The notes under the pieces: generated by a model | Databases searched by the model: none | The model's input: the letters and a program-made list of their open reading frames with translations, nothing else | What the model was told of the DNA's origin: nothing | Assembly: GCA_021817565.1 (NCBI GenBank) | Contig: JAKAUP010000003.1 | Coordinates: forward strand, 1 to 64,000 | Source: Microcaldota archaeon | GTDB lineage: Archaea; Micrarchaeota; Micrarchaeia; Micrarchaeales; Micrarchaeaceae | Direction of reading: 5' to 3' | Length of the DNA stretch: 64,000 nucleotides | Made by a program: the position numbers and the translations under genes | In this document: piece after piece, positions 33,685 to 59,394 of the stretch | How the letters are laid out: every line of letters begins with the position of its first letter | Position numbering within the stretch: the stretch's first letter is position 1

Positions 33685-33939
33685 TTTCGGTTTTTATGAT
33701 TTTATATTGTAATAAACAATAAAAAGTTGTTATATATAATATTGTATTGATAATACAGTTTGATAATAATTTTATAGATAGGCCTAATGTCTACCGATAT
33801 TGCGGTTCTACTATTCCTTTAGAAGCAGAAATTCTATTTTGTTGGGCGCCATAGAAGTGATATTGCACGATTAAACGCATCAGTTTTTGGTCACGTGCTT
33901 TATATCAGTATTTTAATCTTTGCGCACATAAATTTATCT

Positions 33940-36627: not shown

Positions 36628-36630
36628 ATT

Positions 36631-37170
36631 ATGCACAAATTTAAAGGACAGTTCTGGAGCTTTGACGTGATATTCGCAATCATAGTATTCTCGGTAGTGA
36701 TAGTTATACTTGCTTTTACTTGGAACAACGTAAGCAACCAATTGGGCAGTTCCTATGGAAATAATGCTGAGATAATGCAAACGGAAGCTGTTACGCTTGC
36801 GAAGTCGTTGCTCTCTACTGGTTACCCGTCGAATTGGATGAGCATGGTTAATACCACAAACCCCGTAACTTGGGACAATGTAAGCGTAGGTTTGACTGAC
36901 GCGCACGGAAGTACAGTTATATCAAGCGCAAAGCTTTACACCTTTATTGCCATGTCGAATTATAATTATCAGAGCACAAAGCAGGTGCTCGGAATAGGCT
37001 ATGATTATTATATAACAATAAAAAACAGCGAGTTGAACATATCAGTAGGGGAAAACCCAAATACAAACGGCGCGAGGGATGTTTATTCATATTCCGAAAC
37101 TGGTGTATTGGATGGGCAACCGGTCAACATTGACGTAATTGTTTGGAGCGCGCAAAACATAGCGGTGTGA
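36631..37170 (+). CDS. Prepilin-like protein
   Basis: MHKFKGQFWSFDVIFAIIVFSVVIVILAFTWN N-terminal hydrophobic helix. Confidence 0.75.
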   Translation: MHKFKGQFWSFDVIFAIIVFSVVIVILAFTWNNVSNQLGSSYGNNAEIMQTEAVTLAKSLLSTGYPSNWMSMVNTTNPVTWDNVSVGLTDAHGSTVISSAKLYTFIAMSNYNYQSTKQVLGIGYDYYITIKNSELNISVGENPNTNGARDVYSYSETGVLDGQPVNIDVIVWSAQNIAV

Positions 37171-37172
37171 AA

Positions 37173-38933: not shown

Positions 38934-41539
38934 GGAATAGAAAAGGGATACTGCTTACTCTTGCAACACTGATACTCGTTATACTCATGTTAGCGGAGGT
39001 CTTCACATATGTGTCGTTGAACATATCCGGAAACCGGCTGGCAACACAACTTACTGAATCCGAGTCAGCGTCCGCAATAGGTACAAAACTAAACTTGGAG
39101 ATAAAGGCATTCCTGCATGAGCAGACGCTAGTGGCAGTTGGACTAGTAGACAGTGAAAGCCAAATACTAAGCGATAATATAACAAATGGCACGAGCACTG
39201 CCTCAAAAGTCCAAGCTTTGTTATCAAATGCAAACGCGATAAATGCGCCTGGTCCGGTTGTTTACTCGTACGACATAACTATAAACAACCCCGAACCAGA
39301 AGCCGCAAACGGCCCTTTCCAGCAGATGATAAACTTGACTGAAAGCGCATTTGGGAATTATATAGTATACAATGGTAATTTTGCGAACTTCGAATACTTT
39401 TACCAGAACGGCACGATAATCCCGGCGTGGATAGAGAGCAACGACTCGGGAAAACTGGTGACATGGGTTAGGCTAAATGGTGGTATACCAGGTGGCTCAA
39501 AAATTAACATCTATATAGGCTTTGCTCCAAAAACGCTAAACTTGCTATCCGCATCTAGCACGACAGGTATTGGAGAGGCACCGCAACTATCTACGACCTA
39601 TGCAGAGTATGATGATGGTGCGAAAGTGTTCAACTTCTACGACAACTTTGCAGGAACAAGCTTAAACCCGATGTGGACGGCAAGCGGCATAACTTATTCT
39701 GTGAATAATGGATTTTCTGCCACTGCAACCTCGTCAGAAGGCTATGTATTGAGTGAAAACCTCCCTATAAATCCTGCAGGGAATGTTATAGATTTTTATG
39801 GGACTAACTTTCAGACCTCCAGTTATTGGACAGCAGTGGGCGCAATAGATGAAAGGGAAACGCTTGGTTACTCGGGAAGCGGATTTGGAGATATGATAAT
39901 AGCCGGACAACCTACGGCTTCGGTAACTAACGGGCAGCAGAGGAATGTCTCTGGATGGACAGATTCCAGTGCTATCCAAACTTCCAATGTCCCTGCCGTA
40001 TGGACGGTAGAGCCTGTAAGCTCTTCTTCAACCGATTTCTACATGAACTATACTAAAGAGCAGACAGTCTCGACCAGCGCCGACACCTATCCCCTTTATG
40101 AGGGATTGGTTGCGGCTGGTGCATTTGACGCCGCGTATACATTTAACATACCGGTAAGTATCAATTGGTATCGTGCACGTACCTATCCACCTGACGGGGT
40201 TATGCCAAGTTATAGCTTTGGAACTGTAGGAGTTGGGAGTAGTGTTGGGGGTAATTACATAATACCGCTGCAAAATTATCTGCGGGTCTTAGAGCTACAG
40301 GCAGGCTATGAAGGAGAAAACCTGACAATCATCAATTCTAGCTTAACAGTAACGCAATATACCCCTCTTTTTATAAAGGTGGGTTATAGTGCGCTTGCTA
40401 AGATAGGTGTCGGAGGAGTTAATTCTTTCTATCCCATAAATGTTAATGTTACTGTTCCTACTGCGCCTTTAATTTCCCAAGCGAATATTGGAGATTTGCC
40501 GCCCGGAATTATAAGGTATGTACCGATAACCATAACAAATACCCAATCAACAGCTACGCCAGCGCCATTCCAACAAAGACTAAACGTAAATAGTAGCGAA
40601 TATTCAGCATACGAATCTGGAAATCTCCAGAATGTAGAGTTCTTCTACCAGAACTACACCATGATACCGAGCTGGCTGGAAAGCGGAAATTCTAACATAT
40701 CAGCGAATACCACTTACTGGCTCAACTTAGTGCAGGGTATACCCCCGCACAGTTCAATAACAGTTTACATGGGTTTTGCAAACATGACGACCAATTTACT
40801 AAACAACCAAACGACCGGAGAGGCGCCACAGCTCAGTTCAACCTATGCGAAATACGACAATGGCAAAAATGTTTTTGATGCTTATTTTGATGGCAATACC
40901 CAAATTTCTGAGTTTACAACCGGACCGAATAGCATAGTGTCTACAGCAACCGGCATTTCGTATGGCAGTAGCTCGATAAATGCGGTAAAACTGACGGCAA
41001 CCGCCAAAGATTATGCAATGGTATACAATAACCAGAGCGTGCCTTCCGGGGGATACGTTGCAGAAAGCAGCGTCCAGTATACTGGAGCTACCGAGACGCT
41101 TGGCTGGGCAGGATTATCTGATGGTTCTGATGCATCTGCCCCGTCGAACGCGATTGCGAGCGGACAGAATATTGGTGGGTATTATGGGGGAATGGACTGG
41201 CTTAATGGAGGTTACAACGGTGGTACTGCCTCTACAAGCAATCCCTCAGTCAGTACATGGTACTACGCACAGGCTGTTTACCCTGGTACTGCCGCCTCCA
41301 TTTTCAGCGCATCGCTGTTTAGTGACCAGGCACAGTCGGTGTTCCCATACTTCAACTCGGCTATAAGCGTTACCGTATCGGAAAATCCACTATCTACGGC
41401 AACATCAATGTACTTTGCCTTGCCTACCGGGAACGGAGCAGGAACTGGTGATATTGTATATTTCAACTGGGGACGCGTTCGCGCTTACCCACCCAATGGC
41501 GTGATGCCTGTTGTCTCGGTAGGCAGCGTGGTCGGTTAG
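38930..41539 (+). CDS. Prepilin-like surface protein with two DUF2341-type domains
   Basis: MRNRKGILLTLATLILVILMLAEVF; GPFQQMINLTESAFGNYIVYNGNFANFEYFYQNGTIIPAWIES and APFQQRLNVNSSEYSAYESGNLQNVEFFYQNYTMIPSWLES. Confidence 0.82.
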   Translation: MRNRKGILLTLATLILVILMLAEVFTYVSLNISGNRLATQLTESESASAIGTKLNLEIKAFLHEQTLVAVGLVDSESQILSDNITNGTSTASKVQALLSNANAINAPGPVVYSYDITINNPEPEAANGPFQQMINLTESAFGNYIVYNGNFANFEYFYQNGTIIPAWIESNDSGKLVTWVRLNGGIPGGSKINIYIGFAPKTLNLLSASSTTGIGEAPQLSTTYAEYDDGAKVFNFYDNFAGTSLNPMWTASGITYSVNNGFSATATSSEGYVLSENLPINPAGNVIDFYGTNFQTSSYWTAVGAIDERETLGYSGSGFGDMIIAGQPTASVTNGQQRNVSGWTDSSAIQTSNVPAVWTVEPVSSSSTDFYMNYTKEQTVSTSADTYPLYEGLVAAGAFDAAYTFNIPVSINWYRARTYPPDGVMPSYSFGTVGVGSSVGGNYIIPLQNYLRVLELQAGYEGENLTIINSSLTVTQYTPLFIKVGYSALAKIGVGGVNSFYPINVNVTVPTAPLISQANIGDLPPGIIRYVPITITNTQSTATPAPFQQRLNVNSSEYSAYESGNLQNVEFFYQNYTMIPSWLESGNSNISANTTYWLNLVQGIPPHSSITVYMGFANMTTNLLNNQTTGEAPQLSSTYAKYDNGKNVFDAYFDGNTQISEFTTGPNSIVSTATGISYGSSSINAVKLTATAKDYAMVYNNQSVPSGGYVAESSVQYTGATETLGWAGLSDGSDASAPSNAIASGQNIGGYYGGMDWLNGGYNGGTASTSNPSVSTWYYAQAVYPGTAASIFSASLFSDQAQSVFPYFNSAISVTVSENPLSTATSMYFALPTGNGAGTGDIVYFNWGRVRAYPPNGVMPVVSVGSVVG

Positions 41540-43691: not shown

Positions 43692-46064
43692 TTACACAAT
43701 CTCAGGATTAGATGCATCTATTAGTCTTATCTGCCCAGTAGATATAAACATGCGCAACTTGACCGCACTGTCCTTTTGGTTGAATGAAAGCTTTTCCGTG
43801 AATTCATATAACGCTGTGCTGTTTATAAATGCAATATAGGTCTTGGTTCCGCTTTTTATCGGTATCTTTTTGAACTTTGTAGTTTTTGAGTTTATGATTA
43901 TAAGTATCTTCTCTCCCCTAAGTGTTATTACAATGTCCGCGTCTTTGCTTGAATCAATCTCTGTGAATGGGATTGCGTGCGTTACCATGTATATCCTCAA
44001 TTTCTTGAATGTTGCAAGGTACTCTATGTCGTGTCCGGTTTGCTCTTCCCACTTCTTCGGCCCGTATAGGTTATCTACCACCTTAATGTCGCCATTTCCA
44101 ACAAGCCTTGTTAATATTAGATCCACATTATTAAGCGTCAGGTTTACAGGCATATTATTGTATCTGAGATAGTTAGAAATTGCAACCCTTACTTCAGGCA
44201 CTGAAAGGGGCATATACTTCCAGTGATAGTACATATTTAGCTTATCGAAAGTGCCTACTACGTCTTGCCTGCTCAGTTTTATGTCTGTGACCTTGTGTGG
44301 AGGCAGGTCTGGCACGTCCACATATATGTCATCCCTCATCGGTGCCCTTACCGCCACCACTATAAAAAGGGTAATCAGACCGACAACCGCTATCTCTATT
44401 ATTTGGTTGTTCTGCCCGGAGTTTGATGGATTAAATGTAGTAAAGTTAAATACGCTTGAAAGCATTGAGAAATTGAATGTTACTTTGCCAGTTGGTATTG
44501 CAGATCCCCTGGGTAGCTGATAGCTTACCACGCCGCCATTTATCGTTCCATTTTGTGGGTATTCCTTATTTACTGTAAGCGTGTAGTTAACATTGGATAA
44601 TGGAACATTGTCAGAAAGGAGGCTGAAATTTATTATCCCCTTTGTGAGGTTTACTGATGTTATGTTTATTTTGATCGGTTTTATCTGAAATGCGGATTCG
44701 GCATAGTTGAGACCAGAAGGGCTTGATAGCTTAGCTATGTAGTTTCCTGGCGGAAGCATGAAATCTAGCGGAACTATAAATGTGTAATTTCCCTCCGCGT
44801 TTTGTACGTTTGATAACGTTACTCTTTCGGTTTGAGCGTTTATTATATTATAGATCGATATGTAAGACTGCAATACTTCGGGCTTATTTGTACCGGTTAT
44901 GACCGTAAGTTGAGCATCAAATCCATATCCTGGCAATACTATACCAGGCATCGAAAATACTCCGTCCAAGACGTAATTCGGTTTATATGTGATGTATATA
45001 TAGGTATAATTATCCTCTATGGAATAGTTTTTGCTGTTCTCTACAACGGTTCTTAGATATCCGCGATTTAGCAGGTTTATCTTATTTGAAAGCAGAAGTA
45101 GGCTAGATGCATTGTTTTGAAATGAATAATTTATAAGTGGGTCCTTAAGCTGCATCACTACATTTGAAGTTGATGTCCCCGGATAGAAAGAGATTGATGA
45201 GGATGAGTATTTTGGGAGCCAGAATAACTGTGAAACCGCTCTGGCCATATCAAATCCTGCCGATGGTGCGTTAGGCCATTCTTCTAGGACATTAGGAAAT
45301 GCGATGATTGTGGCGTTTGAAACGTTTTCGTAAGTTGCAGGACCATACACGCTACCGTTAGAGAATTTGAATGTTGCGTTATTTAACCTGTATCCCAAAG
45401 TATTACTTATGGCTGGGACTGGGATTGTTGTTAGATAGCTCGGCGTATTATTATTAGGCACGACAGTGGGGCCGGCCAGCATATAAGAGAAGTTCTCTCC
45501 TATGTACATTATATTTACTCCACGGTTAAGAAGGCTGGTTATAGTGCTTGTGTTGGTACCTGGTACATTGTTGAACATAAAATTTGGCATATAGCCGCTT
45601 ATTATTACTAGCAGAGAATCGTTGGACGCGCTTTCCGGGTTTGATATCACGGTTGCGTTTCGTGCATTTGGAACGCCAAATTCGGATAGGTAATTGAAGA
45701 ATGAAGTTATTACCTGCTGGTAGTTACCGCACCTGAAGCAGCCGGTTGATGGGTCTAAAACGTATATTTGTTGTGGGGGAGGGCGCTTGAAAATGGTTGT
45801 GTTCATGTATATGTATGATTCATTAACTGCGTTGTAAGATATGATTGAGTATGGCACAATTGAACGTGAATTATTGTAATATGCAAACCCGTTTTCTACA
45901 AAATGCGCGCTGAGAAACGGCTTTTGATAGGTTGGAGCGTATGCGCGCAGAGCGGCAGTTATTACAAAGTACATATATAACATCAACAATGCGAAAACAA
46001 TGACTACCGCTAATATTATCATTAAGTATCTCTTGCTGATTGTAAATTTCCTTACCTCTGGCAC
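43692..46064 (-). CDS. Large bitopic membrane protein of the T4SS-like cluster; large outer domain, C-terminal cytoplasmic domain
   Basis: 790 aa; TM at N-term and ~aa 560 (IIEIAVVGLITLFIVVAVRAPMRDD); cytoplasmic wHTH/nuclease-like tail (DADIVITLRGEKILIIINSKT). Confidence 0.75.
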   Translation of the reverse strand: MPEVRKFTISKRYLMIILAVVIVFALLMLYMYFVITAALRAYAPTYQKPFLSAHFVENGFAYYNNSRSIVPYSIISYNAVNESYIYMNTTIFKRPPPQQIYVLDPSTGCFRCGNYQQVITSFFNYLSEFGVPNARNATVISNPESASNDSLLVIISGYMPNFMFNNVPGTNTSTITSLLNRGVNIMYIGENFSYMLAGPTVVPNNNTPSYLTTIPVPAISNTLGYRLNNATFKFSNGSVYGPATYENVSNATIIAFPNVLEEWPNAPSAGFDMARAVSQLFWLPKYSSSSISFYPGTSTSNVVMQLKDPLINYSFQNNASSLLLLSNKINLLNRGYLRTVVENSKNYSIEDNYTYIYITYKPNYVLDGVFSMPGIVLPGYGFDAQLTVITGTNKPEVLQSYISIYNIINAQTERVTLSNVQNAEGNYTFIVPLDFMLPPGNYIAKLSSPSGLNYAESAFQIKPIKINITSVNLTKGIINFSLLSDNVPLSNVNYTLTVNKEYPQNGTINGGVVSYQLPRGSAIPTGKVTFNFSMLSSVFNFTTFNPSNSGQNNQIIEIAVVGLITLFIVVAVRAPMRDDIYVDVPDLPPHKVTDIKLSRQDVVGTFDKLNMYYHWKYMPLSVPEVRVAISNYLRYNNMPVNLTLNNVDLILTRLVGNGDIKVVDNLYGPKKWEEQTGHDIEYLATFKKLRIYMVTHAIPFTEIDSSKDADIVITLRGEKILIIINSKTTKFKKIPIKSGTKTYIAFINSTALYEFTEKLSFNQKDSAVKLRMFISTGQIRLIDASNPEIV

Positions 46065-46228
46065 CTTATCCCTTGCTCATATTTACTTTTCCTTATTAGC
46101 AAACAATTTTGTGAATACCTTCTCAAATAATCTTGATGCGATGTTGCTCTGAGGTTTAGTGCTTTTGATTATATGATATATCCTAACGTACCTCAGTCTC
46201 TTGATGATGTTTGCTTTATAAAGCATTT

Positions 46229-46960
46229 CTATCCCTTAAGCTCTATATATTTAAGAGATACCATTTTGTTAAGTATCTGCTCAACTCTCGGTTGGGGAAC
46301 GTTCTTTGTCTTTGAAAATTCTTCGATATCGATGGTATTGTCGTGCGATTCTATCCAATCATCTATCATTACCATAATTGATTGGTCTGAATAGCTCTCT
46401 AGTTCCTTTAACCTTGCTTTTAATTGCTCGTTCTCCTCCGTCAACGAGCTTGACTTTGATATAAGTGATTTATTTGAGTTTGTAAGCTCTATATTTAGCC
46501 TCTTTGTTTCCCTGTAGTCGTTAAGGAGTGATTCGTAATTTCCGTAAAGTGTGCTATAGCTCTGTGACAGCGACTGAAGCACACTGTCTATGGCGGAGTC
46601 TATGTGCTGATAGAAGGTTTTCGCATCCACCTCATAGATGTCCGATATTAATGAAAGCATCCCGCTCAGCGTTTTTATTATGAATAAATGCCGGAGCTTT
46701 TCGCTTGAGTCTGGAGCTACGGAATATTTGACGGATATAGAATCGTTCTTTAGTGTGAATATGAAAAATAGGTATGGGTTCTTTTGCATGTCTGTGCTTT
46801 CGACACTTATTATATTAAACGCGTTCCCTTCGGTTTTCAGTTCAAACGTATTCAAAGAGTTTATCCTGTCCTGGATCTCACTCATTTTGCCCAAAAGCTT
46901 CGCAGTAAAAGTAAACTCGCTTATCTTGGGTTCTTGCAGAACAATTTCCTTCTCAGCCAT
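46229..46960 (-). CDS. Coiled-coil protein with C-terminal winged-helix-like domain
   Basis: Heptad-like YRETKRLNIELTNSNKSLISKSSSLTEENEQLKARLKELE; SKTKNVPQPRVEQILNKMVSLKYIELKG. Confidence 0.75.
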   Translation of the reverse strand: MAEKEIVLQEPKISEFTFTAKLLGKMSEIQDRINSLNTFELKTEGNAFNIISVESTDMQKNPYLFFIFTLKNDSISVKYSVAPDSSEKLRHLFIIKTLSGMLSLISDIYEVDAKTFYQHIDSAIDSVLQSLSQSYSTLYGNYESLLNDYRETKRLNIELTNSNKSLISKSSSLTEENEQLKARLKELESYSDQSIMVMIDDWIESHDNTIDIEEFSKTKNVPQPRVEQILNKMVSLKYIELKG

Positions 46961-46995
46961 ACTATCTTTTTGGGCGGGAATGTTTTTATTACTAA

Positions 46996-47406
46996 CTAAT
47001 GCTCCTTAGGCTTTTTCCTCTTTGAGTTTGCCTCATTTTTCCCTAATTCAGTCTTATTATCCAATTCAAGCGCAGGTATATAACTCAAAAGCGATAGCAG
47101 ATACATAAATGCGATAAGCAGCAGTCCGGCAAATATTGAGTAAGCTTTTATGCCCCCTATAAGAATCCAGAAAAACGTTGCGATGACCCCTATCCCAGTA
47201 TAAGCAAACCTTTTCTTGTTGAATGATGCTCTTGCTGCGCGATACTTCTTGTAGCAATCCCTGCATACAACAAGTTCGTACCCTTTTTCGTTCTTTGTGA
47301 TGTTTCTCTTAAACCACCTTATCGCGTTTATAACACTATCATCCCTTACCTTAAGCCCTTTTTTCTCGAGTCCGCAAATTATGCAACGTGTATTTCCCAT
47401 TTTCAC
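46996..47406 (-). CDS. Zinc-ribbon membrane protein
   Basis: CIICG...VVCRDCYKKY (CxxC/CxxC) followed by two TMs. Confidence 0.75.
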   Translation of the reverse strand: MKMGNTRCIICGLEKKGLKVRDDSVINAIRWFKRNITKNEKGYELVVCRDCYKKYRAARASFNKKRFAYTGIGVIATFFWILIGGIKAYSIFAGLLLIAFMYLLSLLSYIPALELDNKTELGKNEANSKRKKPKEH

Positions 47407-47705
47407 ACCTCTACCTTTGCCCTGTATATATGACCTGCTTGCGCAAGCATCTTCTCCTCATCCACCATATCAAGCACCCTGCTCAATCTTATGTCGTCCA
47501 TACCTAATCTCCGCATAATCTGTATTATCTTGTTTCTTGAAAGGCTAGTCTTCTCCAGCAGCAATACAAATGCAATCACATTTATGTGCATATGCTTTTT
47601 CTCTACTTCCGCTATGATGGATTCGATTTGTGGCTCTTTTACGCCGTATGCTACCAGCATTTTCTTTATCTCCTTCTTTGAGATTGAATATGATATACCA
47701 GCCAT
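47403..47705 (-). CDS. Small helical hypothetical protein of the T4SS-like cluster
   Basis: 100 aa; 4-nt overlap with downstream gene. Confidence 0.65.
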   Translation of the reverse strand: MAGISYSISKKEIKKMLVAYGVKEPQIESIIAEVEKKHMHINVIAFVLLLEKTSLSRNKIIQIMRRLGMDDIRLSRVLDMVDEEKMLAQAGHIYRAKVEV

Positions 47706-47715
47706 TATTTACCGC

Positions 47716-49236
47716 CTATGTATGCTCTGCCATCCCTATATCAGATATTATCCTAGTTATTATAATATCATCTATGCTGAGGCTCTTCAAGAATGATATT
47801 ATATCGCGGGTATTTGAATTGTTCCTTGTAAGCAACCCTACGAATTCTCGCATGCTTATGCTTCTGTTATTAGACTCTATAGCAGATATTATTCCGGCTA
47901 TGGCGTCAGAGCTCATGTTTATCTCTATCAGCTTGTTCTTCAGTTCAGCAGCTTCAAACTGGTAATCCTTTGGCATTGCCCTGGAGTCAAGCTCGCTTTT
48001 TGTAAGTATTTCAGTCATGTCTATTCTATATACGTACAGTGGTTCTTCGCCGCGTATGCGTTCCAAGGTGAATACCTGCGGGAAATTCAGGTTGCTTTGG
48101 AAGGCCATATCTACTGCCGCTTGCCCAACTCCGAATTTGGATATCTCCTCCCTTATTGCGTCTGAAAAGTTAAGCGAGCTCTGTATGTAATTCAGGAATT
48201 TCTCGAACCTTGTCCTTAGTATGAATGTCGTGCCCACATTGGAGAATATCGCCTCGTTTATATCTGTCGGGTTTTGTGATGCCACAATCAACCCAAACTG
48301 GTATTTCCTGCCTTCCCTGACAATCATTACTGCGTCGCTCTTTTCATCCCCAGCTATCTTCCAAGCTTCGTCCAATACGACTAGGGTCTTAAGTCCTTTA
48401 TTCACGTTCCACCCCTCTATCCTCATTCTCTCTTTTAGTATTTGTAATATGACAAGAGCCGCAAGCGCTCTGTGCTGCTCGTCCGGAAGCCCGGAGAGGT
48501 CAATATCAACAAGCCCGGAAGAAGCTAGCTTTTTCATATCTATTGTGCTCTTTCTTGAGAAGAAATCTTGACCTTCCCTGGCAAACTGTCTTAGGCGGTA
48601 TATGGCGTTTTCCAATTCTGCAGGATACTCATACGTGCCTTCTTGGAGTTTTTCCTGAAGCAACGATATGACGTTGTGCAAAGTTGGACATTCCTTTCCT
48701 TCGGGTGGAGGCACAGGGAGCTTAAAACCCATGTTTGTATATGATTGTTCTATACCTTCCTCTGTTAGCCTACGCTGCTCTGGGAACATCGATATGTCTG
48801 TGAGTATCTCCAGAGCGTTCATTATCTGTTTTGTCCTGTTTATTGGGGGTATCCCAGATAGGTCTAGTATGTTTAGGTAGTCGCCCTTGCCGAGCGATAT
48901 TATCTTCCCGTTGCTCTGCCTTACCCAATCAAGGTACTCGGCAGCCCAGTCTATTATTATTGCATTGGTGCCCCATATGTAGTTTGCCCTTATGAGAAAG
49001 GTCTTAACGAAGTAGCTTTTTCCTGATCCGGTTATGCCGACCACTGCTATATGTGGATTTGTGACGTTTTCGAATGACCAGCTGAACGGCACCTTGAATA
49101 TGCTTGTTGTACCGACAAAAATTGCTTTGTATGGATCGTTTATTAGAACGCTTGCCGGAGGCTCGGATGGTCTCGAGATAAATGATCGTTTAGCTATCTC
49201 GTTGCTCATTATGTATTGAAATTTTAGTATGCTCAT
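47716..49236 (-). CDS. VirB4/TraC/HerA-like AAA+ ATPase
   Basis: NPHIAVVGITGSGKSYFVKTFLIRANYIWGTNAIIIDWAAEYLDWV; LVVLDEAWKIAGDEKSDAVMIVREGRKYQFGLIVASQNPTDI. Confidence 0.92.
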   Translation of the reverse strand: MSILKFQYIMSNEIAKRSFISRPSEPPASVLINDPYKAIFVGTTSIFKVPFSWSFENVTNPHIAVVGITGSGKSYFVKTFLIRANYIWGTNAIIIDWAAEYLDWVRQSNGKIISLGKGDYLNILDLSGIPPINRTKQIMNALEILTDISMFPEQRRLTEEGIEQSYTNMGFKLPVPPPEGKECPTLHNVISLLQEKLQEGTYEYPAELENAIYRLRQFAREGQDFFSRKSTIDMKKLASSGLVDIDLSGLPDEQHRALAALVILQILKERMRIEGWNVNKGLKTLVVLDEAWKIAGDEKSDAVMIVREGRKYQFGLIVASQNPTDINEAIFSNVGTTFILRTRFEKFLNYIQSSLNFSDAIREEISKFGVGQAAVDMAFQSNLNFPQVFTLERIRGEEPLYVYRIDMTEILTKSELDSRAMPKDYQFEAAELKNKLIEINMSSDAIAGIISAIESNNRSISMREFVGLLTRNNSNTRDIISFLKSLSIDDIIITRIISDIGMAEHT

Positions 49237-49290: not shown

Positions 49291-50124
49291 CTATGACATC
49301 TTATCAAAAACGTCATTTATCTCGCCTATTGAATCCTGCAGGGAGAAATTTGATCTGAAAAGCGCCAGAAGTTCCCTTCCTTTTATCCTGTTTAGCTCTA
49401 TATCGAATGAGCCCATTGCAGTGCTAATGGATGATATCTGTGAATAGAGCGAATCTGCGGCTGCTTTCTCGCTTACTCCAACGGCAGTAGTCTCTATATA
49501 CATGAGCGTTGCTATGGGTTTTTCCCCGCCTGATATCCTATCCATCTTAGCTTGTATTATATTTATTTCCCTCTGAATGTCCTGCATGGCCGTAGCGCTT
49601 GGATTGCTCGATTGCATCAGTCTTGCAAGTTGGAATTCTTGGAATGAGCGCTTCCCCTCAAGCTCATTCCTTATATCTTGCACATCAAGCCCGGCAGATA
49701 TTACGTTGTATTTCCAAGGAAACTTGAGCGCTGATATTGCACGCTCCCAGTTTGATGGCGCCTGCTCCATTTTCGATTCTTCCTCTTCTGGAGGCATTTC
49801 CAATTTGAACGTGTATGTGAAAAGATTGGCGCTTATGTAGCCTGTTGCGTAGTACAACCCATTAACGTTCTTTATTATCGAGTTCTGTTCTTTTGACATC
49901 CAATAGCCTTCAGCTATCTGGAACCTCATACCTATGGATGACATTAGCGCGGGGAAGACTATCGTATCCGCAAAGCCCATTAATAGGATGAAGATTGCAG
50001 TTATTAATACAAAGAACATTGCTATGTAGTAATATGCTCCCTTAAAAGATGATCCGAATGCAAACCCTATAAGGACAACAAGGAATGACACGATTATAAA
50101 TATAAGTTTCTCTGGATCTATCAT
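49291..50124 (-). CDS. Membrane-anchored protein with VirB4 N-domain-like cytoplasmic region (VirB3-VirB4N-like?)
   Basis: Two N-terminal TMs; KPIATLMYIETTAVGVSEKAAADSLYSQISSISTAMGSFDIELNRIKGRELLALFR. Confidence 0.65.
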   Translation of the reverse strand: MIDPEKLIFIIVSFLVVLIGFAFGSSFKGAYYYIAMFFVLITAIFILLMGFADTIVFPALMSSIGMRFQIAEGYWMSKEQNSIIKNVNGLYYATGYISANLFTYTFKLEMPPEEEESKMEQAPSNWERAISALKFPWKYNVISAGLDVQDIRNELEGKRSFQEFQLARLMQSSNPSATAMQDIQREINIIQAKMDRISGGEKPIATLMYIETTAVGVSEKAAADSLYSQISSISTAMGSFDIELNRIKGRELLALFRSNFSLQDSIGEINDVFDKMS

Positions 50125-50969
50125 TATATTACCTCTTCTTCGACACTTTTTGATATGTTCTCTGCAGTTGTCGAGTATGGTATTTGATATTCTGGCTCTA
50201 TAAACCTGAGAAGCTCGTTTCCGGTTATAACCGCGGGCTGCACCCCGAAGAGCGTGCCTATTCCGGATATCAATTCTCTCCCTCTCTGCTGGGCGATGCT
50301 TACCGCTTCAAACTCGTTAGTTCCGAAAGAGGTTACCGATGCGTATGATATCTGTTCATATGATATGCTGGAATTTACCGTATCGAGTATATTTCGCCAC
50401 ATTGAGAGTTTCCCCCTTATGTTATTGAGTTCGGCGGTAGGGGCGCCGGAAGCGACCATAGCCGATTCCTCGTTTTCGGCGGCGTTTATGCTCTCCCTAA
50501 GCTGCTGTATGTACATGTCTTTGTTCATTACGAACATGCCTGTGGTATATCTTGCAATGCCTCTGCTCTGGCCAACCATCCTCCCGACCAGCCTGGCAAA
50601 TTCGACCCTCTCTTCTGCCTTCATGTCCGTAGATGACCTATAAACAGGTATCTTTATGTATACTGTAGCTTTGTAGCCATCTCCGGATTTTACAACCAGG
50701 GCATCCTTGCTTGTAGAAAATGTGTAAGGAACTTCGGAGTTTATAACTACGCTCTTTGAGCGGTGCTTTGCGATGCCTATCATGAATTCCGAGTAGTCCT
50801 TGAAGAATATGGCAAAAACATCAAAAAGGAGACCTATAATGAAAAGGATTATCTTTACAGGGTTTGGTAGCTGAGCCGGTGGTATGATTGCAGATGCTGC
50901 AACTATGCCCGCCGATATGGCAACAAGTATGATAAAGAACAAAATCTTTGCATTCATTTTTGCGCCCAA
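50124..50969 (-). CDS. Membrane-anchored protein with VirB4 N-domain-like cytoplasmic region (VirB3-VirB4N-like?)
   Basis: Two N-terminal TMs; YASVTSFGTNEFEAVSIAQQRGRELISGIGTLFGVQPAVITGNELLRFIEPEYQIPYSTT. Confidence 0.65.
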   Translation of the reverse strand: MGAKMNAKILFFIILVAISAGIVAASAIIPPAQLPNPVKIILFIIGLLFDVFAIFFKDYSEFMIGIAKHRSKSVVINSEVPYTFSTSKDALVVKSGDGYKATVYIKIPVYRSSTDMKAEERVEFARLVGRMVGQSRGIARYTTGMFVMNKDMYIQQLRESINAAENEESAMVASGAPTAELNNIRGKLSMWRNILDTVNSSISYEQISYASVTSFGTNEFEAVSIAQQRGRELISGIGTLFGVQPAVITGNELLRFIEPEYQIPYSTTAENISKSVEEEVI

Positions 50970-51002: not shown

Positions 51003-52133
51003 TTAGATGAACATCCTTATCCTACCTGTCCTTGATGCTCCCCCTATGAATCCAGCAATCTGCACAACGAACACATAAACAACAGCTATTATAAGACCCG
51101 GATAAAAGAAAATTAGGAACCAGAAGGATGCGATTGCAGGACTTATTCCTTTAACAGTAGTGGATAACTGGGAATTCTGACCTTCGCCGTTTGTTATAAA
51201 ACCGTTATTCTGAGAAAATAGGCTTATCTGCGAAGTCGCAGTTGTAAACTGCTGGTTTATGTTAGGGGCTGTGAAATAGTATCCCACAGAGAACATTATT
51301 GGCATTACTAAGTAGAAAGCCATTCCTAGCGCTATTAGCATACCACCTAGTGCTCTTGTAGGCAAGAAGGCCCTAAATAGCACGCCTGGTATTATGAAAA
51401 CAGGGATTGACGCGGTAGCAAAGAATATTATCAAGTAGTACTCCGCGTACAGCGCTATTATCCCATCTGCAAGTAGTTTGGATATCTCGAGCGTCGGGGA
51501 AAGAACAAATATCTCGTACGGGATAAATGGAAAATTCAATATACTATTTAGTATTCCCCCTACACTTGATATTGGGGTTGTGGCTAGCGGCACAACTTTT
51601 ATAGAAGTTACAAGACTTCCTTCAAGGTATGTATTGAATAACGTTGCATAAAGGCTTTCGGCCTGGTTGAGCGTTGATTTTATTAGAAATATCGAGGTCG
51701 CATAAGGATTAAGCTGACCAGAAAATAGGGATGGAACAAACCCGAACATTATTGCACAGACATATAAGAACGCCAATACTATTATTGCAGTGGCAAATGC
51801 TTCATATAGCTCCCCGACACCAAAATTTTTGATTGTTTGACTCTTGAATACAAGCCCTGCAACAAAGATTATTGCTGCGATAGATATCGATATACCTATG
51901 GCAATAATACCAATCGGCAGATAATGAATCCATTCAGAGTATATCTGTTGGTTTATTGGACAGTACCATGGCGATTGCTGGATTATCAAAGAGGCGGTTG
52001 GTGGGGGTAAAAGACCGCATCCGGCCGTGCCTGTTAACCCTTGAATTGGGTTTATAATATTAGATGCTCCAGAAATCGGCATAGCTAAGAAAGCCATGAG
52101 GAGTACACCAAATAAACCAGCCTTGAGATTCAT
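51003..52133 (-). CDS. VirB6/TrbL/CedA-like polytopic membrane protein, paralog 1
   Basis: Shared motifs VGELYEAFATAIIV and IIPGVLFRAFLPTRALGGMLIALGMAFYLVMPIMF. Confidence 0.75.
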   Translation of the reverse strand: MNLKAGLFGVLLMAFLAMPISGASNIINPIQGLTGTAGCGLLPPPTASLIIQQSPWYCPINQQIYSEWIHYLPIGIIAIGISISIAAIIFVAGLVFKSQTIKNFGVGELYEAFATAIIVLAFLYVCAIMFGFVPSLFSGQLNPYATSIFLIKSTLNQAESLYATLFNTYLEGSLVTSIKVVPLATTPISSVGGILNSILNFPFIPYEIFVLSPTLEISKLLADGIIALYAEYYLIIFFATASIPVFIIPGVLFRAFLPTRALGGMLIALGMAFYLVMPIMFSVGYYFTAPNINQQFTTATSQISLFSQNNGFITNGEGQNSQLSTTVKGISPAIASFWFLIFFYPGLIIAVVYVFVVQIAGFIGGASRTGRIRMFI

Positions 52134-53233
52134 ACTAGACCACTAAGTAAGACCAAAAATGATACCTTCTCACCTATCGCTGAGGAGAAATCAGTTATAA
52201 ATGTTTCTAGGACAACAAAATTAAGAAATGGTATTAATGTCAAGCCGAGAAAGATATAACTTATTGCTTTAAATGCATTGGCAATTGACCCTTGTATAGC
52301 TGCTTGGGCGGTTAATTGCGTTATAGAATTTAACGGATTGCCTAAAGCTAATGAGTCCAAAATAATCTTTATTAGCGAGATCCCCAGGTTTCCGATGTTC
52401 CCCAGAAAAGATGAAAATGAAGCGGATATCGTTACTAATATGAAACCATATGTTATGCTAACAATAAGCGGGTATACTAATCCCAGTCCCAGGCCTAATG
52501 ATATGAGGGTACCCGCAAAAGATCTTGAAAACCCGAATATGCGCGCAACCAAGCCCATAGGTATAAATGTTATCAAGAAAAAGAGTGACAATGATAGTAT
52601 TATACCTTGAACATACGATAGCGTCATCGCAAGCATGAGGGCGGAAACCATAACGGTTGCTGGAAAGAATACCGACGTCGGTATTATTGAATTTATTTCA
52701 GTCGATGCTGATATGGATATTGATATTTCTCCGGTTGAAAACAAAATTGGGGGGAAGTTGATAGGTATTCCTGGGGCTAAACCTTCTATAAATAATCCAC
52801 CAAAGGATAGTGCGAGAAGAGTAGAGGAGTAGCTGTTAAATGTGGAAATGTCGCACTCCCCCAGTTCAAATATGTTAGTTGAGGATTTGCATTGGGACGG
52901 CATTAACCCCAGGGCTGAATAACCACTCTGTGGGTTTATCAAAAAAACGTATATTATGCTTGAAAATGCGATAAGAAGGACCAATGATAGTATTCCCTCG
53001 AATATCTGGTTTTTAGTCCATTCTGCAGCTTTGTTATTTTTTATTGTTATACTTATTGCATAGGCTATTGCAGAGACCGTTATTACAAGCAGTAAGGCTA
53101 TTGCACCTATCGATATGTAGTAGGAAACATCGGATTTTAATGATTGAACTGTTTGCGCGCCAGTTATTGATATGAGTATAAGTGCGATTAGAACTGAAAG
53201 TACCAGAACGCCAGTAAACCTATTTGATCTCAT
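52130..53233 (-). CDS. VirB6/TrbL/CedA-like polytopic membrane protein, paralog 2
   Basis: EWTKNQIFEGILSLVLL and FIPMGLVARIFGFSRSFAGTLISLGLGLGLVYPLIVS. Confidence 0.75.
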   Translation of the reverse strand: MRSNRFTGVLVLSVLIALILISITGAQTVQSLKSDVSYYISIGAIALLLVITVSAIAYAISITIKNNKAAEWTKNQIFEGILSLVLLIAFSSIIYVFLINPQSGYSALGLMPSQCKSSTNIFELGECDISTFNSYSSTLLALSFGGLFIEGLAPGIPINFPPILFSTGEISISISASTEINSIIPTSVFFPATVMVSALMLAMTLSYVQGIILSLSLFFLITFIPMGLVARIFGFSRSFAGTLISLGLGLGLVYPLIVSITYGFILVTISASFSSFLGNIGNLGISLIKIILDSLALGNPLNSITQLTAQAAIQGSIANAFKAISYIFLGLTLIPFLNFVVLETFITDFSSAIGEKVSFLVLLSGLV

Positions 53234-54342
53234 ATCAATTTACCTAATACTTTGCTTCCAGTAAAGCTTGGTGCTCCGAGGAAATCACCCATAGTTTCAG
53301 CGAAGTCAAAAGTTAATATAAGCGATATTATAATGGATATGAATGCGTACACGGTTGGACCTATAACGTTATCAGCCAACCATCCCATTATACCTGGGCT
53401 TTTAGGCCCGAATAGACTACTTAACTCTGATGCTGCATTTGATATATCTGTAGTGGGTTTAGAGTTAAGGTTAGGTACTGATGCAGATATAGACGAAGAA
53501 GTAAAAGTGCTACTGCCTATGCTTAGCATCGAATTGATTACAACCGGAAAGAATATGTAAAACCCAATGAATATGCCGAGAAACGCCCCGCCTGCTGCCC
53601 GCGTCCAAGGTATAGTTCTGAGTACTATCCCGGCAAATAGAAATATTGGAAATAAGTTATATATTAGGGCAATGAATGCTATAAGGGACAAACTTATACC
53701 AAAAACTAATGTAAATATTGACATAATAAATGATATTGGTGCATTTAGGAGCGATAGTCCTGCAAGAGGTGTAATACTTATCGATGCGGTCAATCCCCCA
53801 CTTACTATACCCCCTATTACATTTAGATAAAAGTCTAAGCTAAATTTAAGGTTTGATAGCAGTTGGATTATGAGTGTCAATGCGTATACCCCAATTATGC
53901 TTGGTATGGTGCCTATTGTCTCGCTTGAAAGATAGTTACATGTAGTAAGGAACCTGTTGCCGCTGGAGTATAGGGAATTTATGCCGTATGCCGAACCTAT
54001 GAATACAGAGACTATCAAAAACGTTAGCACAATCTCTGCCAATTCCATTTTGGCAAAATTTTTTAACCTTGAATATCCAAACGCGTAACCTATTCCATAT
54101 GCTATCCCGATAATAAAGAGCATAACCGATATTATGATTAAGCTGATTGGGAGTAGGTTATGCAGACTTGTGCTGTTTATGTTTGTGCCGCTTGGAGAGA
54201 GTATGCTTGAACAGAAGCTTGATGCCAAAGTTGGAGTTGCAGGAGCTGCGGCGTTTGAATAGGTTATAATTGTTGCAAATAGTAATATTGGAAGTATCAG
54301 GAATATTATTAGCTGCATTCTATTGCTTATTTTGCCAATCAT
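53230..54342 (-). CDS. VirB6/TrbL/CedA-like polytopic membrane protein, paralog 3
   Basis: NFAKMELAEIVLTFLIV and FLFAGIVLRTIPWTRAAGGAFLGIFIGFYIFFPVVIN. Confidence 0.75.
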   Translation of the reverse strand: MIGKISNRMQLIIFLILPILLFATIITYSNAAAPATPTLASSFCSSILSPSGTNINSTSLHNLLPISLIIISVMLFIIGIAYGIGYAFGYSRLKNFAKMELAEIVLTFLIVSVFIGSAYGINSLYSSGNRFLTTCNYLSSETIGTIPSIIGVYALTLIIQLLSNLKFSLDFYLNVIGGIVSGGLTASISITPLAGLSLLNAPISFIMSIFTLVFGISLSLIAFIALIYNLFPIFLFAGIVLRTIPWTRAAGGAFLGIFIGFYIFFPVVINSMLSIGSSTFTSSSISASVPNLNSKPTTDISNAASELSSLFGPKSPGIMGWLADNVIGPTVYAFISIIISLILTFDFAETMGDFLGAPSFTGSKVLGKLI

Positions 54343-55727
54343 ATTAACTTACCTAATCCTGCAAGACTTGTATCTCCGCCCATTAGTCCAGATATCCCTA
54401 TTATAGAAGACAGTGTTATAAGTATGTTTATTATTGGTATCCAATACATTATGATACCGCTTATTCCGTATATGTCGAAAATATCAAACGTTAGATGTTC
54501 TACACTTGATTCAGAGCAACCAGAGAATTGAATTGATGTGTCTGGTATCGAACCTCCAGTAAATGCTAGTATCAGGTTTACTTGCGATACGATAGGGACT
54601 AGAGCTAAACCTATCTGTTCGGATTCAGCTAATCCTATATTACCTAATATTGGCCAGCAGCCATCCTGTTCTGCAGTCTTCGCTATACTTGGAAGAACAA
54701 AAAAATCAAGATTGTACGGTTCTGTTTTTATTGCGTTAGAAGATTCTATTGTGTTTGAGAGGATTATGCTGTTTGCAGTTATAGGACCGGGCGCAATAAC
54801 TGCATTCGGCCCGTACGTACTCGTATAAGCGGCCAGGTTTCCATAGCTTGCCGAGTTTGATAATGTTATGTATTCTATAGATAGTATGGTTGGGTATATG
54901 AAAACCATGCCTATTGCTACGGCAATCAAAAGCCCCCCGATCTTTCTTGTAAAAATTATTGACCTTAGTATTATACCGCCAAATATCAGATACGGCCACG
55001 AATATAAGGCAATTGTAAGTATTATTAGGGTCGCAATGTTGAATTCCAGGCCAAGCGACATTAGAGTTCCGAGAGGCCTCATTGCATCATAAACCATCGC
55101 AAACCCAGCATCAGGGCTTATGCTTCCGCTAACCTCCGGAATTCCTAGACCGATTCCTGTCGTTACGGAGAATTTAGAAAAGAACCCTATATAAGAGTCT
55201 ACTATAGACAAGTAATTCAGTTGCTGTGCTACCTGACTTGTTATATTTGCATCTATTACGCCCGCCGCTGCAAGCGGATAGTCTATGCGCGTACTGACAC
55301 TACTGGATCCGGTTTGGATGTAATAGCACAGGCCGGGGTATTTTGGATTTGATGAACCGAGTAAGGAGCCACTTCCTTCAGATAATATTGATAGTCCTGT
55401 AAAAATCCCGTTGTTTTTTTCTATGCCTGAGCATAGTGATGATATGGTTCCCTGATTCATTGCGTGCGTGCTATTTAGGGATGTGTATAGTACCCCGGAT
55501 AATACAGTTAGTGCATATATTACTATCGCTATTATTATGAGAGTACCTATTATCTGGGTGAATTCTCCGATTGCAGACTGCTTTATTTTCTCGTTTGCCA
55601 ATAGGAACCCAATTATATACCATATAGATATGATGCCGCTGCTTATCAGAAGTGCGAGTATGGCAAGCGGTATAAGATTGCTTGATGCAGGTAAAATTGC
55701 GGTGTATATTTGTAACATGTTAAACAC
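54339..55727 (-). CDS. VirB6/TrbL/CedA-like polytopic membrane protein, paralog 4
   Basis: KQSAIGEFTQIIGTLIII and LIFGGIILRSIIFTRKIGGLLIAVAIGMVFIYPTILS. Confidence 0.75.
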   Translation of the reverse strand: MFNMLQIYTAILPASSNLIPLAILALLISSGIISIWYIIGFLLANEKIKQSAIGEFTQIIGTLIIIAIVIYALTVLSGVLYTSLNSTHAMNQGTISSLCSGIEKNNGIFTGLSILSEGSGSLLGSSNPKYPGLCYYIQTGSSSVSTRIDYPLAAAGVIDANITSQVAQQLNYLSIVDSYIGFFSKFSVTTGIGLGIPEVSGSISPDAGFAMVYDAMRPLGTLMSLGLEFNIATLIILTIALYSWPYLIFGGIILRSIIFTRKIGGLLIAVAIGMVFIYPTILSIEYITLSNSASYGNLAAYTSTYGPNAVIAPGPITANSIILSNTIESSNAIKTEPYNLDFFVLPSIAKTAEQDGCWPILGNIGLAESEQIGLALVPIVSQVNLILAFTGGSIPDTSIQFSGCSESSVEHLTFDIFDIYGISGIIMYWIPIINILITLSSIIGISGLMGGDTSLAGLGKLI

Positions 55728-56903
55728 TCATAGATTCCCCCAGAAGTTTACACTATCTAGGCCAGCGTTGAGAGCTTTTGAAAGGCTTGATGCAAAACCT
55801 ATAGTCACAGTAAGGTCTATCCCTAACATAAAGAGTCCCATAAATATGTATTTTGCTATCCCTGAAGTGATTGCCTGCGCTTCATTAAACGATTCGTTTG
55901 GTAGTATTAAACCTATATTCTGGAATAGTGGACCTGATATAAAGCTTGAAACAGGAGGTGAAATGAACCCGCCCAGAAAGCTGCCAGTGTAACTATAGCT
56001 TGATAAGCTTGAAAAGAAGGATTTTGGAACAGTTAACGGTACGAGTTCTGAACTCAGGCAATTCTGACAAGAGTAAAGAGGGTTTTTGGGGCTGAAGGCA
56101 TAGGATATAACATAGCTGTTCATCACTATCATCATTGGGTATACTATGTAGAAGGCAATGGCCAACGCCAATATCGCATTCCCGGCTTCCCTGAGACCCG
56201 GATTACCTGCCCCTGCGAAAGATATTGATCTTATTATCAATGCAAAGGGCAGGAATAATGTAAATGCCATAGTCTGTATGACTGGGAGCGACAGCCATTG
56301 CAGGAATAATATCCCTATTATTATTATAAGTAATTCAGAGAATATTCCTATGTACACTGCAGATAGGGTATCGTAAAAAATGTAAAGATCTTGACCGAAT
56401 GGAATACCCAAGTCGCGTACTGCTGCACCGTATATTGCGTAGCTTATACCAGTAGTATATATGTAGCTTAACAGGCCGAGTCCTGTGTTTATTGAAATTG
56501 ATTCCATATAGTACTCTGAATATTGGAAAGGATTGAGGTTTGGTTGACCTATAAGAGATCCGCTTACGCTCGACGAGAGTGAACAGACGGATAGAGATGT
56601 AGAAAGCAAGACCATTATTATGATAGCACTTATGGCTAATTGTGTTATTTCTACTTTTGACAGCTCTGTTACCATACCTGAAATTCTGGGACCCAGGAAC
56701 CTGGATGCAGCATATACTATCCCTATTACAGTGAAGCCCAGGAGTATAACTATAAAATTGATACCGAGCCAGTTTGACGTGTATGCCCCGCCGAGTGTGC
56801 AACTGTTTGATGATTGCGGAATGCTTTGTGCTACTGCTATGCCGATTAATAGTAGTGCCGAGATAAGAAACATAATTAACTTAAATGCGCTTATTCTTTT
56901 CAT
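55728..56903 (-). CDS. VirB6/TrbL/CedA-like polytopic membrane protein, paralog 5
   Basis: TELSKVEITQLAISAIII and FLPFALIIRSISFAGAGNPGLREAGNAILALAIAFYIVYPMMIV. Confidence 0.75.
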   Translation of the reverse strand: MKRISAFKLIMFLISALLLIGIAVAQSIPQSSNSCTLGGAYTSNWLGINFIVILLGFTVIGIVYAASRFLGPRISGMVTELSKVEITQLAISAIIIMVLLSTSLSVCSLSSSVSGSLIGQPNLNPFQYSEYYMESISINTGLGLLSYIYTTGISYAIYGAAVRDLGIPFGQDLYIFYDTLSAVYIGIFSELLIIIIGILFLQWLSLPVIQTMAFTLFLPFALIIRSISFAGAGNPGLREAGNAILALAIAFYIVYPMMIVMNSYVISYAFSPKNPLYSCQNCLSSELVPLTVPKSFFSSLSSYSYTGSFLGGFISPPVSSFISGPLFQNIGLILPNESFNEAQAITSGIAKYIFMGLFMLGIDLTVTIGFASSLSKALNAGLDSVNFWGNL

Positions 56904-58108
56904 GCAATCGTGAATTTGCCTATACCTAACTTTACAGAACCGCCAAGTATCTTCGCGATGTTATCGGTAATCGTTATACCTATAATCAAGTCAACCACTA
57001 TGAGTATGAATTGCACTACATCGCTTACCGCATAGTATATCGACATATTAAGAACCGGAAATATGCCGAATATTGGCGGGGTAAAAAAACCAACAAAGTA
57101 ACCCAAAAATCCGCTCAATGCGTTAACTAGACCTTCAATTATATTTATTATGTAATTCAAGATTGCCGACCAGCTTCCTTTGGCACTTGGTTGCGGAGGG
57201 TATAGCACATTGTTAAAGTAATTTGTTATGGGCAGGTTTACCAATACGAGTAAACTTGGATACACGAGGCAGAAACCTATCCCCATGGCTATAAATGTGC
57301 CACCGAGACCGCGCAACGTAGGTATTGCCCTAAGCACAACGCCTATCGGTATAAAAGCAATGAGACCTACGCCGACTATAATATAAAAGGAATAGCTGAG
57401 TAACCCGAACAGTAGGTCTACCGGTATTATTACGATATATAGGAGATCTCCCAGAAAGGAAAATGCCCCTTTTGATGATTCTAGTATGCTACTAGTGTAA
57501 AGCTTTCCTTCTGATCCGCTCTGTAGCGATACTATGACAGAAACATAGTCGGTTAATCCAAATCCTACGCTTTTTAGTGCACCTACGCCCGCAGCAATAC
57601 CGCCAACGGCATACGTTGCAAGGAGGGTATTACTTGATGTTGGTGTTATGTAATTATTATAAGCAGTTGTCCAGAGCCCTCCGAAGTTCGATATCAGCCT
57701 GGACGTAGCAGTACCTGCAGTTGACTGCGTTCCGCCTGCAAGAGTTAGCGATATTCCGCTCATTATGGTTAACAGCGATATTATAGAACCGATTATTATT
57801 AGGGTCTTTATTGTTTCGTATAGCTCTCCTTTGTACCATCCTTGCAATTTACTTATTCCTAAAAGTTGTGATGCGATATAAGCAAGCGATATTATTGCAA
57901 AGGAAAGTAATATGCCGACCATTACAAGAGATAGAAATTGGGAGTAGATGCTGCCAACGCATGAAGTTATACTTGATGAGGAAGCGGAGGCAGTGCATGT
58001 TGATATGCCTGAAGTAAGAAGTAGGTTTGTGCTGGTATATGCCGGGTAGGCAAGCGGCGATAATAATATTAATGCAGCAACAGCCGCCAATAAAATACTT
58101 CTCTGCAT
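56900..58108 (-). CDS. VirB6/TrbL/CedA-like polytopic membrane protein, paralog 6
   Basis: GWYKGELYETIKTLIIIG and FIPIGVVLRAIPTLRGLGGTFIAMGIGFCLVYPSLLV. Confidence 0.75.
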   Translation of the reverse strand: MQRSILLAAVAALILLSPLAYPAYTSTNLLLTSGISTCTASASSSSITSCVGSIYSQFLSLVMVGILLSFAIISLAYIASQLLGISKLQGWYKGELYETIKTLIIIGSIISLLTIMSGISLTLAGGTQSTAGTATSRLISNFGGLWTTAYNNYITPTSSNTLLATYAVGGIAAGVGALKSVGFGLTDYVSVIVSLQSGSEGKLYTSSILESSKGAFSFLGDLLYIVIIPVDLLFGLLSYSFYIIVGVGLIAFIPIGVVLRAIPTLRGLGGTFIAMGIGFCLVYPSLLVLVNLPITNYFNNVLYPPQPSAKGSWSAILNYIINIIEGLVNALSGFLGYFVGFFTPPIFGIFPVLNMSIYYAVSDVVQFILIVVDLIIGITITDNIAKILGGSVKLGIGKFTIA

Positions 58109-58150: not shown

Positions 58151-58885
58151 CTAATTTCTCAGCATTGCGTACTTGTTTATGTACATCTCCCCTTGAAGCG
58201 TTATGAGAAATGGAAGGATAAGCATCGAGTCAATTACAAGAAGCATGTACCCTGAAATTGATACCCCGAAAGGCATAAAAATTATGTCTGTCGCGGTTAA
58301 GAGTGCGATGCTTATTATTACCCACATCACTGGGTATCCGAAACGCTTGAAAAAGAGCGAAACGCTTGTTTTTACCGCATGCCTGAGCTTCTTTTCATCT
58401 ATTACAACAGCTGAAGGAGCATAAAAGAATAGAGGCGTAATGAGCAGCCCGGCAATTGCGGTGACGATTCCGGAGAATTTTGGGGAGAGATGATAAGACA
58501 GTATATTCACGGCTATGAGTATGAACGTGAAGAGGAAAAGTATAGTAAAGACCTTTGCGGTATACTTTTCAAGTGCGCTTATGATCTCTCTTGTTACCTT
58601 CACCCTTGTCTTCCTGTACTTTATGGTTATGTTTATCATGACTATCGCAAAGCTTAGGAAGAGTATGGAGAACATTGTTGAGGCTATTATAATAGCTATG
58701 TCAACCACAGTGAGATTGGTAAATATGCTGGCGGTCCTTATGAATGTTGAGCCTAAATCAAGATATGTTGGTAACGGTGATACTAATGGTATGAGCAAGG
58801 CGATGATTAGCGAGATGGCTGAAAAGACAACAAGCTTGAAGTGCTTAGAGTATGTCTCAAAAGCATTGTATAGCACGTTAGCCAT
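58151..58885 (-). CDS. Polytopic membrane protein of the T4SS-like cluster
   Basis: 244 aa, ~6 TMs; between VirB2-like and VirB6-like genes. Confidence 0.7.
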   Translation of the reverse strand: MANVLYNAFETYSKHFKLVVFSAISLIIALLIPLVSPLPTYLDLGSTFIRTASIFTNLTVVDIAIIIASTMFSILFLSFAIVMINITIKYRKTRVKVTREIISALEKYTAKVFTILFLFTFILIAVNILSYHLSPKFSGIVTAIAGLLITPLFFYAPSAVVIDEKKLRHAVKTSVSLFFKRFGYPVMWVIISIALLTATDIIFMPFGVSISGYMLLVIDSMLILPFLITLQGEMYINKYAMLRN

Positions 58886-58962: not shown

Positions 58963-59394
58963 CTAAAGACCGCCTAATCCAGCACCGCAACTTGATACTG
59001 AGAATGTTCCAGCGCCGCTAGAATTTGCGAACAACCCTACCAAGTAAGGTGCAAGCAGCACGATTATTATCCCTACAATGCCTCCGATTATCATTGTCCA
59101 AGAGTAACCCTGCAGTTTACCTCTCGTATCCCCAGGCACCATATGAGCACCAGCATAAAGTATACCACCAAGCACTATTAGCACGAGCGCAATTATGAAT
59201 ACTAAGTTGTGTATGTCATTGTATATGCCGCATAGTGTGTTTTCTACTGTACTTACACCAGTAGACGTACCGGTACCACCAAATTGAGCATTTGCTATAG
59301 ACATTATGGACATAAATCCAAGCAACAGTGGCATCAGAATAAATGCCATCTTTATAATCTTAGACATATTTGGCAGACTATATGTTTTGTTCAT
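58963..59394 (-). CDS. VirB2/CedA1-like pilin
   Basis: Signal peptide ...MSIANAQFGG then two TMs (LVFIIALVLIVLGGILYAGAHMV-PGDTRGKLQG-YSWTMIIGGIVGIIIVLLAPYLVGLF). Confidence 0.7.
   Translation of the reverse strand: MNKTYSLPNMSKIIKMAFILMPLLLGFMSIMSIANAQFGGTGTSTGVSTVENTLCGIYNDIHNLVFIIALVLIVLGGILYAGAHMVPGDTRGKLQGYSWTMIIGGIVGIIIVLLAPYLVGLFANSSGAGTFSVSSCGAGLGGL

Follow-up and report, generated by a model that had tools for sequence, protein, structure and literature searches.

What does an archaeal genome do with six diverged copies of one membrane protein gene, placed one after the other beside genes for a putative pilin and a transfer-type ATPase, and is six the number with which the lineage began? 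Both questions are raised by the 64,000-nucleotide stretch analyzed here (hereafter the window), which is chromosomal Micrarchaeota DNA from a 775-kb archaeal genome that is 97% complete. The six genes, which we numbered M1 to M6 in order of transcription, follow one another in the same direction on the minus strand, where they fill exactly positions 51003-58108. Four of their five junctions in the window overlap by 4 nt and the remaining one abuts, and overlapping reading frames of this kind are compatible with equal dosage of the six products.

Gene content of the operon

The genes of the operon are all encoded on the minus strand. It opens with a gene for a VirB2/TrbC-like pilin of 143 aa (58963-59394), followed by TM244 (58151-58885), a polytopic membrane protein of 244 aa that is unrelated to M1-M6, is kept at this site in most loci of the order, and has orthologues of which 5 of 13 match the NCBIfam BPSS1780 membrane family. 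The six M genes come next, and after them two genes for proteins of like architecture, namely two N-terminal TM helices and an alpha/beta domain: D281 (50124-50969) and D277 (49291-50124), which are paralogues (hhalign probability 97.7%). The ATPase (506 aa, 47716-49236) resembles VirB4, HerA, CedB and CedD, and lacks the VirB4 N-terminal domain. Just after it, a small ORF of roughly 100 aa (47469-47693) resembles the C-terminal 75 residues of the ATPase (residues 424-498, E 1.1e-4) and is conserved in many relatives. Three conserved minus-strand genes at 43692-47406, encoding proteins of 136 aa (2 TM), 243 aa (soluble) and 790 aa (2 TM), trail the ATPase across the class; no convincing Pfam match was found for them, and they are probable accessory genes. 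Near the transfer operon, the plus strand encodes three large, probable surface proteins at 33895-41539; Laminin_G_3 domains occur in two of them and a DUF2341 match in the third.

Paralogy and conserved motifs of M1 to M6

Slot profiles, each made of the window protein and 37 orthologues, were compared by hhalign. All 15 pairs reached a probability of 97.2-99.6%, with E-values from 3e-11 to 2e-24: 98.9-99.6% for M1 against M2-M6 (slot 1, 402 aa, 56900-58108) and, each against the other five, 97.2-98.9% for M2 (slot 2, 391 aa, 55728-56903), 97.2-99.5% for M3 (slot 3, 462 aa, 54339-55727), 97.6-99.2% for M5 (slot 5, 367 aa, 52130-53233), and 98.0-99.6% for M6 (slot 6, 376 aa, 51003-52133), the most conserved of the six; M4 (slot 4, 370 aa, 53230-54342) falls within the same overall range. 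Because the controls stayed low, at no more than 8% for M against reversed M and no more than 2.2% for M against the unrelated membrane family TM244, this similarity is not an effect of transmembrane composition. For most pairs, BLAST with single sequences from the operon is already enough to show a link (E-values as low as 3e-8, with 14 proteins in the database), and the slots are deeply divergent, with about 15-20% identity between them. The original prediction, made from the sequence by eye, that six tandem paralogues here share two motifs is borne out by the profile comparisons and the slot alignments, and neither outcome that it had named beforehand as speaking against it, a lack of significant similarity or a generic transmembrane effect, occurred in the all-versus-all profile alignment.

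The first of these motifs, E-x-x-[EQ], has acidic residues that are invariant in most slots: E95 and E98 in M1, E103 in M4 (where E100 is conserved at 97%), and E108 and E111 in M6. It appears as E55/Q58 in M3 and as E85 in M2, and is weakest in M5. The second, approximately PxGxxLRxxxxTRxxGGxxIAxxIGxYxxYP, has an invariant final P and both R residues at 90% or more among 77 members drawn from all six slots. A third common motif, C-terminal and of the form LGG / LGxP / xGE, had not been part of the prediction. Motifs 1 and 2 are also present in single-copy M homologues, and are therefore a signature of the family as such, six-fold or not; slot-specific conserved residues exist alongside this shared core. 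In addition, M2 has an N-terminal hairpin similar to the pilin (hhalign 83.6%). An AF2 model of M6 (pLDDT 73) places both motifs at turns between long helices, beside K/R residues, which by the positive-inside rule suggests that these turns face the cytoplasm; our structure models, built on 31 and 15 sequences, have moderate confidence.

Constancy and ancestry of the number six

Among genomes with a completeness of at least 90%, the ATPase is present in 33 of 33 of the family and 52 of 52 of the order; for the class the count is 90 of 97. Thirty-seven of the 38 order-level loci fetched around it with enough flank have all six M genes upstream in the same order; in the 38th, from genome G004, all six are found, in the usual order, at another chromosomal site. 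In G154, as in G004, they stay together though unlinked from the ATPase. Every one of the 68 intact clusters, from 14 families, holds exactly six M genes in corresponding order, within a sample that is this class and in which fragmented assemblies hide some clusters. These 68 comprise 57 clusters in fetched loci, the window, G154, and nine clusters whose count was taken from the coordinates of profile hits instead of from the individual genes. Two of the fetched loci at first appeared to have seven members and both resolve to six: in one (L098) slot 5 occupies two overlapping frames, and in the other (L083) the seventh hit is a pilin-like ORF. Amplification with a variable gene number is ruled out by this constancy. 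Five genomes with few hits (G032, G036, G083, G118 and G025) are uninformative, since their contigs break off next to the ATPase or within the cluster.

In whole-genome profile searches, the window genome was found to have six M genes only (seven hits, two of them inside M3), and genomes of several other families (G160, G174, G170, G200 and G189) to have two cassettes with exactly six M genes in each, as checked gene by gene. A separate observation concerns one order-level genome, G100, with 27 M-profile hits on contigs C2, C11, C18 and C22, of which C11 and C18 are nearly identical in layout; the surplus hits are either extra cassettes or assembly duplicates. Extended M members of 700-1431 aa were also seen (at L047, L048, L104, L107, L110 and L112, and in G203), in several slots, a few of them with Ig-like or SprB domains. 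At L104, L107 and L110, from three families, slot 6 of the second cassette is followed downstream by a very large single-TM protein of 1366-1640 aa, a possible adhesin or effector.

When clusters were compared by Smith-Waterman scores, the identity assignment of slots, out of 720 possible ones, came first in 116 of 171 pairs of clusters (pairs that are not independent of each other), and the mean score matrix was diagonal. In a maximum-likelihood tree of 120 cassette proteins, the grouping follows the slots, not the clusters (10 changes versus 82 in shuffles), slots 2 and 5 each form a single clade (SH-aLRT 99 for slot 5), and the two cassette copies, a and b, separate largely within slots. 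The six slots therefore predate both cassette duplication and the divergence of the families. Six is thus ancestral, which answers a question that the original prediction had posed for a per-paralogue phylogeny, and the whole cassette was later duplicated as a unit and retained in several families. The slot tree carries one caveat: slots 1, 3, 4 and 6 of the order-level families f1 and f2 do not join the corresponding slots of other families. We take it for a long-branch effect, since the two remaining slots, 2 and 5, are not affected and, in the permutation comparison, family f7 connects the two sets.

Relationship to T4SS and Ced/Ted systems

Two proteins of the operon point to a transfer system. 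The pilin matches Pfam TrbC (PF04956, E 9.7e-8, above the gathering score) and T4SS_pilin (PF18895, E 1.6e-5), and the VirB4/HerA-clade ATPase matches DUF87/HerA (E 1e-15), AAA_10 and TraG, the matches to DUF87 and AAA_10 being above cut-off. Against NCBIfam, the ATPase matches CedD (E 1e-18), CedB (E 7e-18), TraC (E 2e-14) and VirB4 families, the first three all under their equivalog cut-offs. Among the M proteins, CedA is the commonest NCBIfam match, seen in 4 of 77 members (best E 1.2e-5, under the 330-bit cut-off), and in a search of the whole genome M4 is the only CedA match (NF041796, E 3.1e-5, likewise under the curated cut-off). The best natural full-length fold match that Foldseek returned for the M6 model is VirB6 of R388 (7o3v, probability 0.82), which at E 0.11 is not significant. 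On this weak direct evidence, together with the pilin and the VirB4-like ATPase in the same operon, M1 to M6 may be assigned to the VirB6/CedA family, in support of the VirB6/TrbL-like label that they had first been given.

For D277, Foldseek pointed to the R388 VirB4 TrwK (8rtb/8rtd, probability 0.93, E 0.13), and the sequence shows a weak match (E 0.0022) to the N-terminal part, 131-219 of 590, of NCBIfam CedB. D281 and D277 may thus be VirB3/VirB4-N-like, a detached N-terminal domain; their identification as VirB8 was dropped, as the CedB and VirB4 similarities point to VirB4-N. It is worth adding that the VirB4-N-like part is doubled, as a duplicated pair, where the VirB6-like part is six-fold. 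The links of M and of D, singly weak, become convincing when combined with a recurrent four-gene operon, and we regard the locus as a Ced/Ted-type relative of T4SS. The equivalog cut-offs for CedA, CedB and CedD are not reached, with scores far below them, and the system is therefore Ced-like and not Ced. No relaxase or coupling protein was recognized among the operon and neighbouring genes scanned.

The four-gene operon is strictly composed of pilin, a solitary M homologue, a D277-like gene and ATPase, and was found in 10 genomes, with a solitary M homologue beside the pilin only in two more; the minimal loci (L134-L142 and L117) are in genomes of this order and class. Possibly, it is the ancestral form of the machine. 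Several of the genomes that have it, such as G004, G154 and G086, also have the six-gene cassette, and since a one-VirB6 system is present in the same cells, the retention of six belongs to the larger machine. Two genomes, G107 and G089, keep the single-copy operon and either lack the cassette or have it at another site.

A proposed machine and its alternatives

We favour, with a probability of roughly 60%, a reading in which a Ced/Ted-type machine has, in place of the usual single VirB6/CedA protein, an obligate set, M1 to M6, that assembles into a hetero-oligomeric channel in the membrane or a platform for pilus assembly, most simply with one of each. The gene for a homo-oligomer would have been duplicated in tandem and its copies specialized to fixed positions, which would account for the constant number, the fixed order, the copying of the cassette as a whole and the presence of the core motif in every slot. 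The six proteins would be translated in series and act together, a VirB2-like pilus would be built on the outer side of the channel, and the VirB4/HerA-like ATPase would sit on the inner side, bridged by D281 and D277. The machine may take up or exchange DNA, as Ced does, or serve exchange with a host cell, both being plausible; on the host side, a virB6 is growth-essential in an epibiotic Patescibacteria strain (PMC12102498). A hetero-oligomeric channel or platform, which had been suggested from the outset alongside substrate diversification, fits six co-maintained, slot-specific subunits better than does a loose diversification of substrates.

A more specific form of this reading, put forward only tentatively as we would give it somewhat less than even odds, is an obligate hetero-hexameric VirB6 ring with one of each ancient paralogue, tandem-duplicated from a single-gene homo-oligomer that is still found in related genomes. 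If true, the ring would match a six-fold VirB4 ATPase, in contrast to the pentameric VirB6 rings of bacteria, and would be the T4SS counterpart of homo-to-hetero ring transitions, to which MCM2-7 and CCT offer an analogy. The VirB6 rings solved to date, as well as that of DotA, are pentamers (PMC12857230), and six genes therefore need not equal one ring. This is one reason to consider that the six might serve one machine other than as a one-of-each ring, for example as a VirB6-like pentamer of five with a specialized sixth subunit, or with a stalk, tip or surface adhesin made from some of the slots. Slot sizes do differ, and the members of up to 1431 aa in relatives, with their occasional Ig-like or SprB domains, would suit such roles, but the same core motifs recur in every slot and the long members are spread over several slots, so that we consider this arrangement unlikely.

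Less probable still is that the slots are six alternative homo-oligomeric channels which use a common pilus and ATPase and each serve a different substrate or partner. The deep divergence between slots and their own conserved residues could be explained in this way; diversification, however, would yield a variable copy number, and number and order are constant in the intact clusters, whose genes are coupled in tandem and duplicated as whole sets. That the locus is no T4SS relative, and encodes an unrelated export or transport complex beside a pilin and a HerA-type ATPase, seems to us very improbable. In the 77 M members there was no match to Pfam TrbL/VirB6 at E 0.05, PDB sequence searches with the M and D profiles gave nothing useful, and the Foldseek hit is not significant. 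Against this stand the likeness of M2 to the pilin, which parallels the resemblance reported between CedA and CedA1 (PMC9905601), and the CedA matches described above. The strict recurrence of the pilin, M, D277-like and ATPase operon argues in the same direction. T4SS genes are frequently mobile, but a conjugative plasmid or integrated element present by chance hardly deserves consideration, given an ATPase found in all 52 genomes of the order that are at least 90% complete, a vertical slot phylogeny, and no match to M6 in 72,556 plasmids.

The locus points to a transfer machine that is nearly universal in this order of archaea, which are probably host-dependent. If M1 to M6 do form a hetero-oligomeric channel or platform, it would bear on the role of VirB6 (static platform, protochannel or pore) and on the fit between a pentameric platform and a six-fold ATPase. 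Each subunit position, moreover, apparently has its own gene, which would allow position-by-position genetics and structural labelling of a kind not possible with a homo-oligomer.

Comparison with known systems

The initial view that no equivalent had been described proved too strong, as sets of VirB6 paralogues are known from Rickettsia, Anaplasma and the Sulfolobales; in the literature searched, which covers few subscription journals, a description of such a six-part cassette was not found. Closest in setting is Ced of the Sulfolobales (CedA, CedA1, CedB, CedD and CedE; PMC9905601, PMC11868833), which is also archaeal and chromosomal, with a VirB2-like pilin, VirB4-like ATPases with divided N-terminal domains, and VirB6-like proteins in plural, namely the paralogues CedA and CedE, both needed for DNA import (PMC11868833). 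Ced differs in having two VirB6-like proteins and not six, in how the ATPase parts are split, and in its weak similarity to the window proteins. Ted of the Thermoproteales has comparable parts (the pilin TedC with a signal peptide, the polytopic TedA and the VirB4-like TedB; PMC9905601), but TedA is single, and a TedB split as in the window is not described.

R388 VirB6 (TrwI) and Legionella DotA share the VirB6-type central platform or protochannel (PMC12857230; PDB 7o3v), the fold similarity of M6 to 7o3v being weak. Each is a homopentamer from a single gene.

To our knowledge, duplication as a unit is not known for the VirB6 set of the Rickettsiales. Next to virB3/virB4, their rvh/vir T4SS has a tandem run of diverged VirB6 paralogues, five in Rickettsia (VirB6a-e; PMC2653234) and four, cotranscribed, in Anaplasma (VirB6-1 to -4; PMC7648143), with extended members among them, and is likewise kept across a host-dependent group with reduced genomes. 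It is, however, a bacterial double-membrane system, and one copy can be lost, as in R. massiliae. The six-part cassette differs from these precedents in its archaeal setting, in keeping strictly to one number throughout a sample that spans the class, and in having been duplicated as a whole set.
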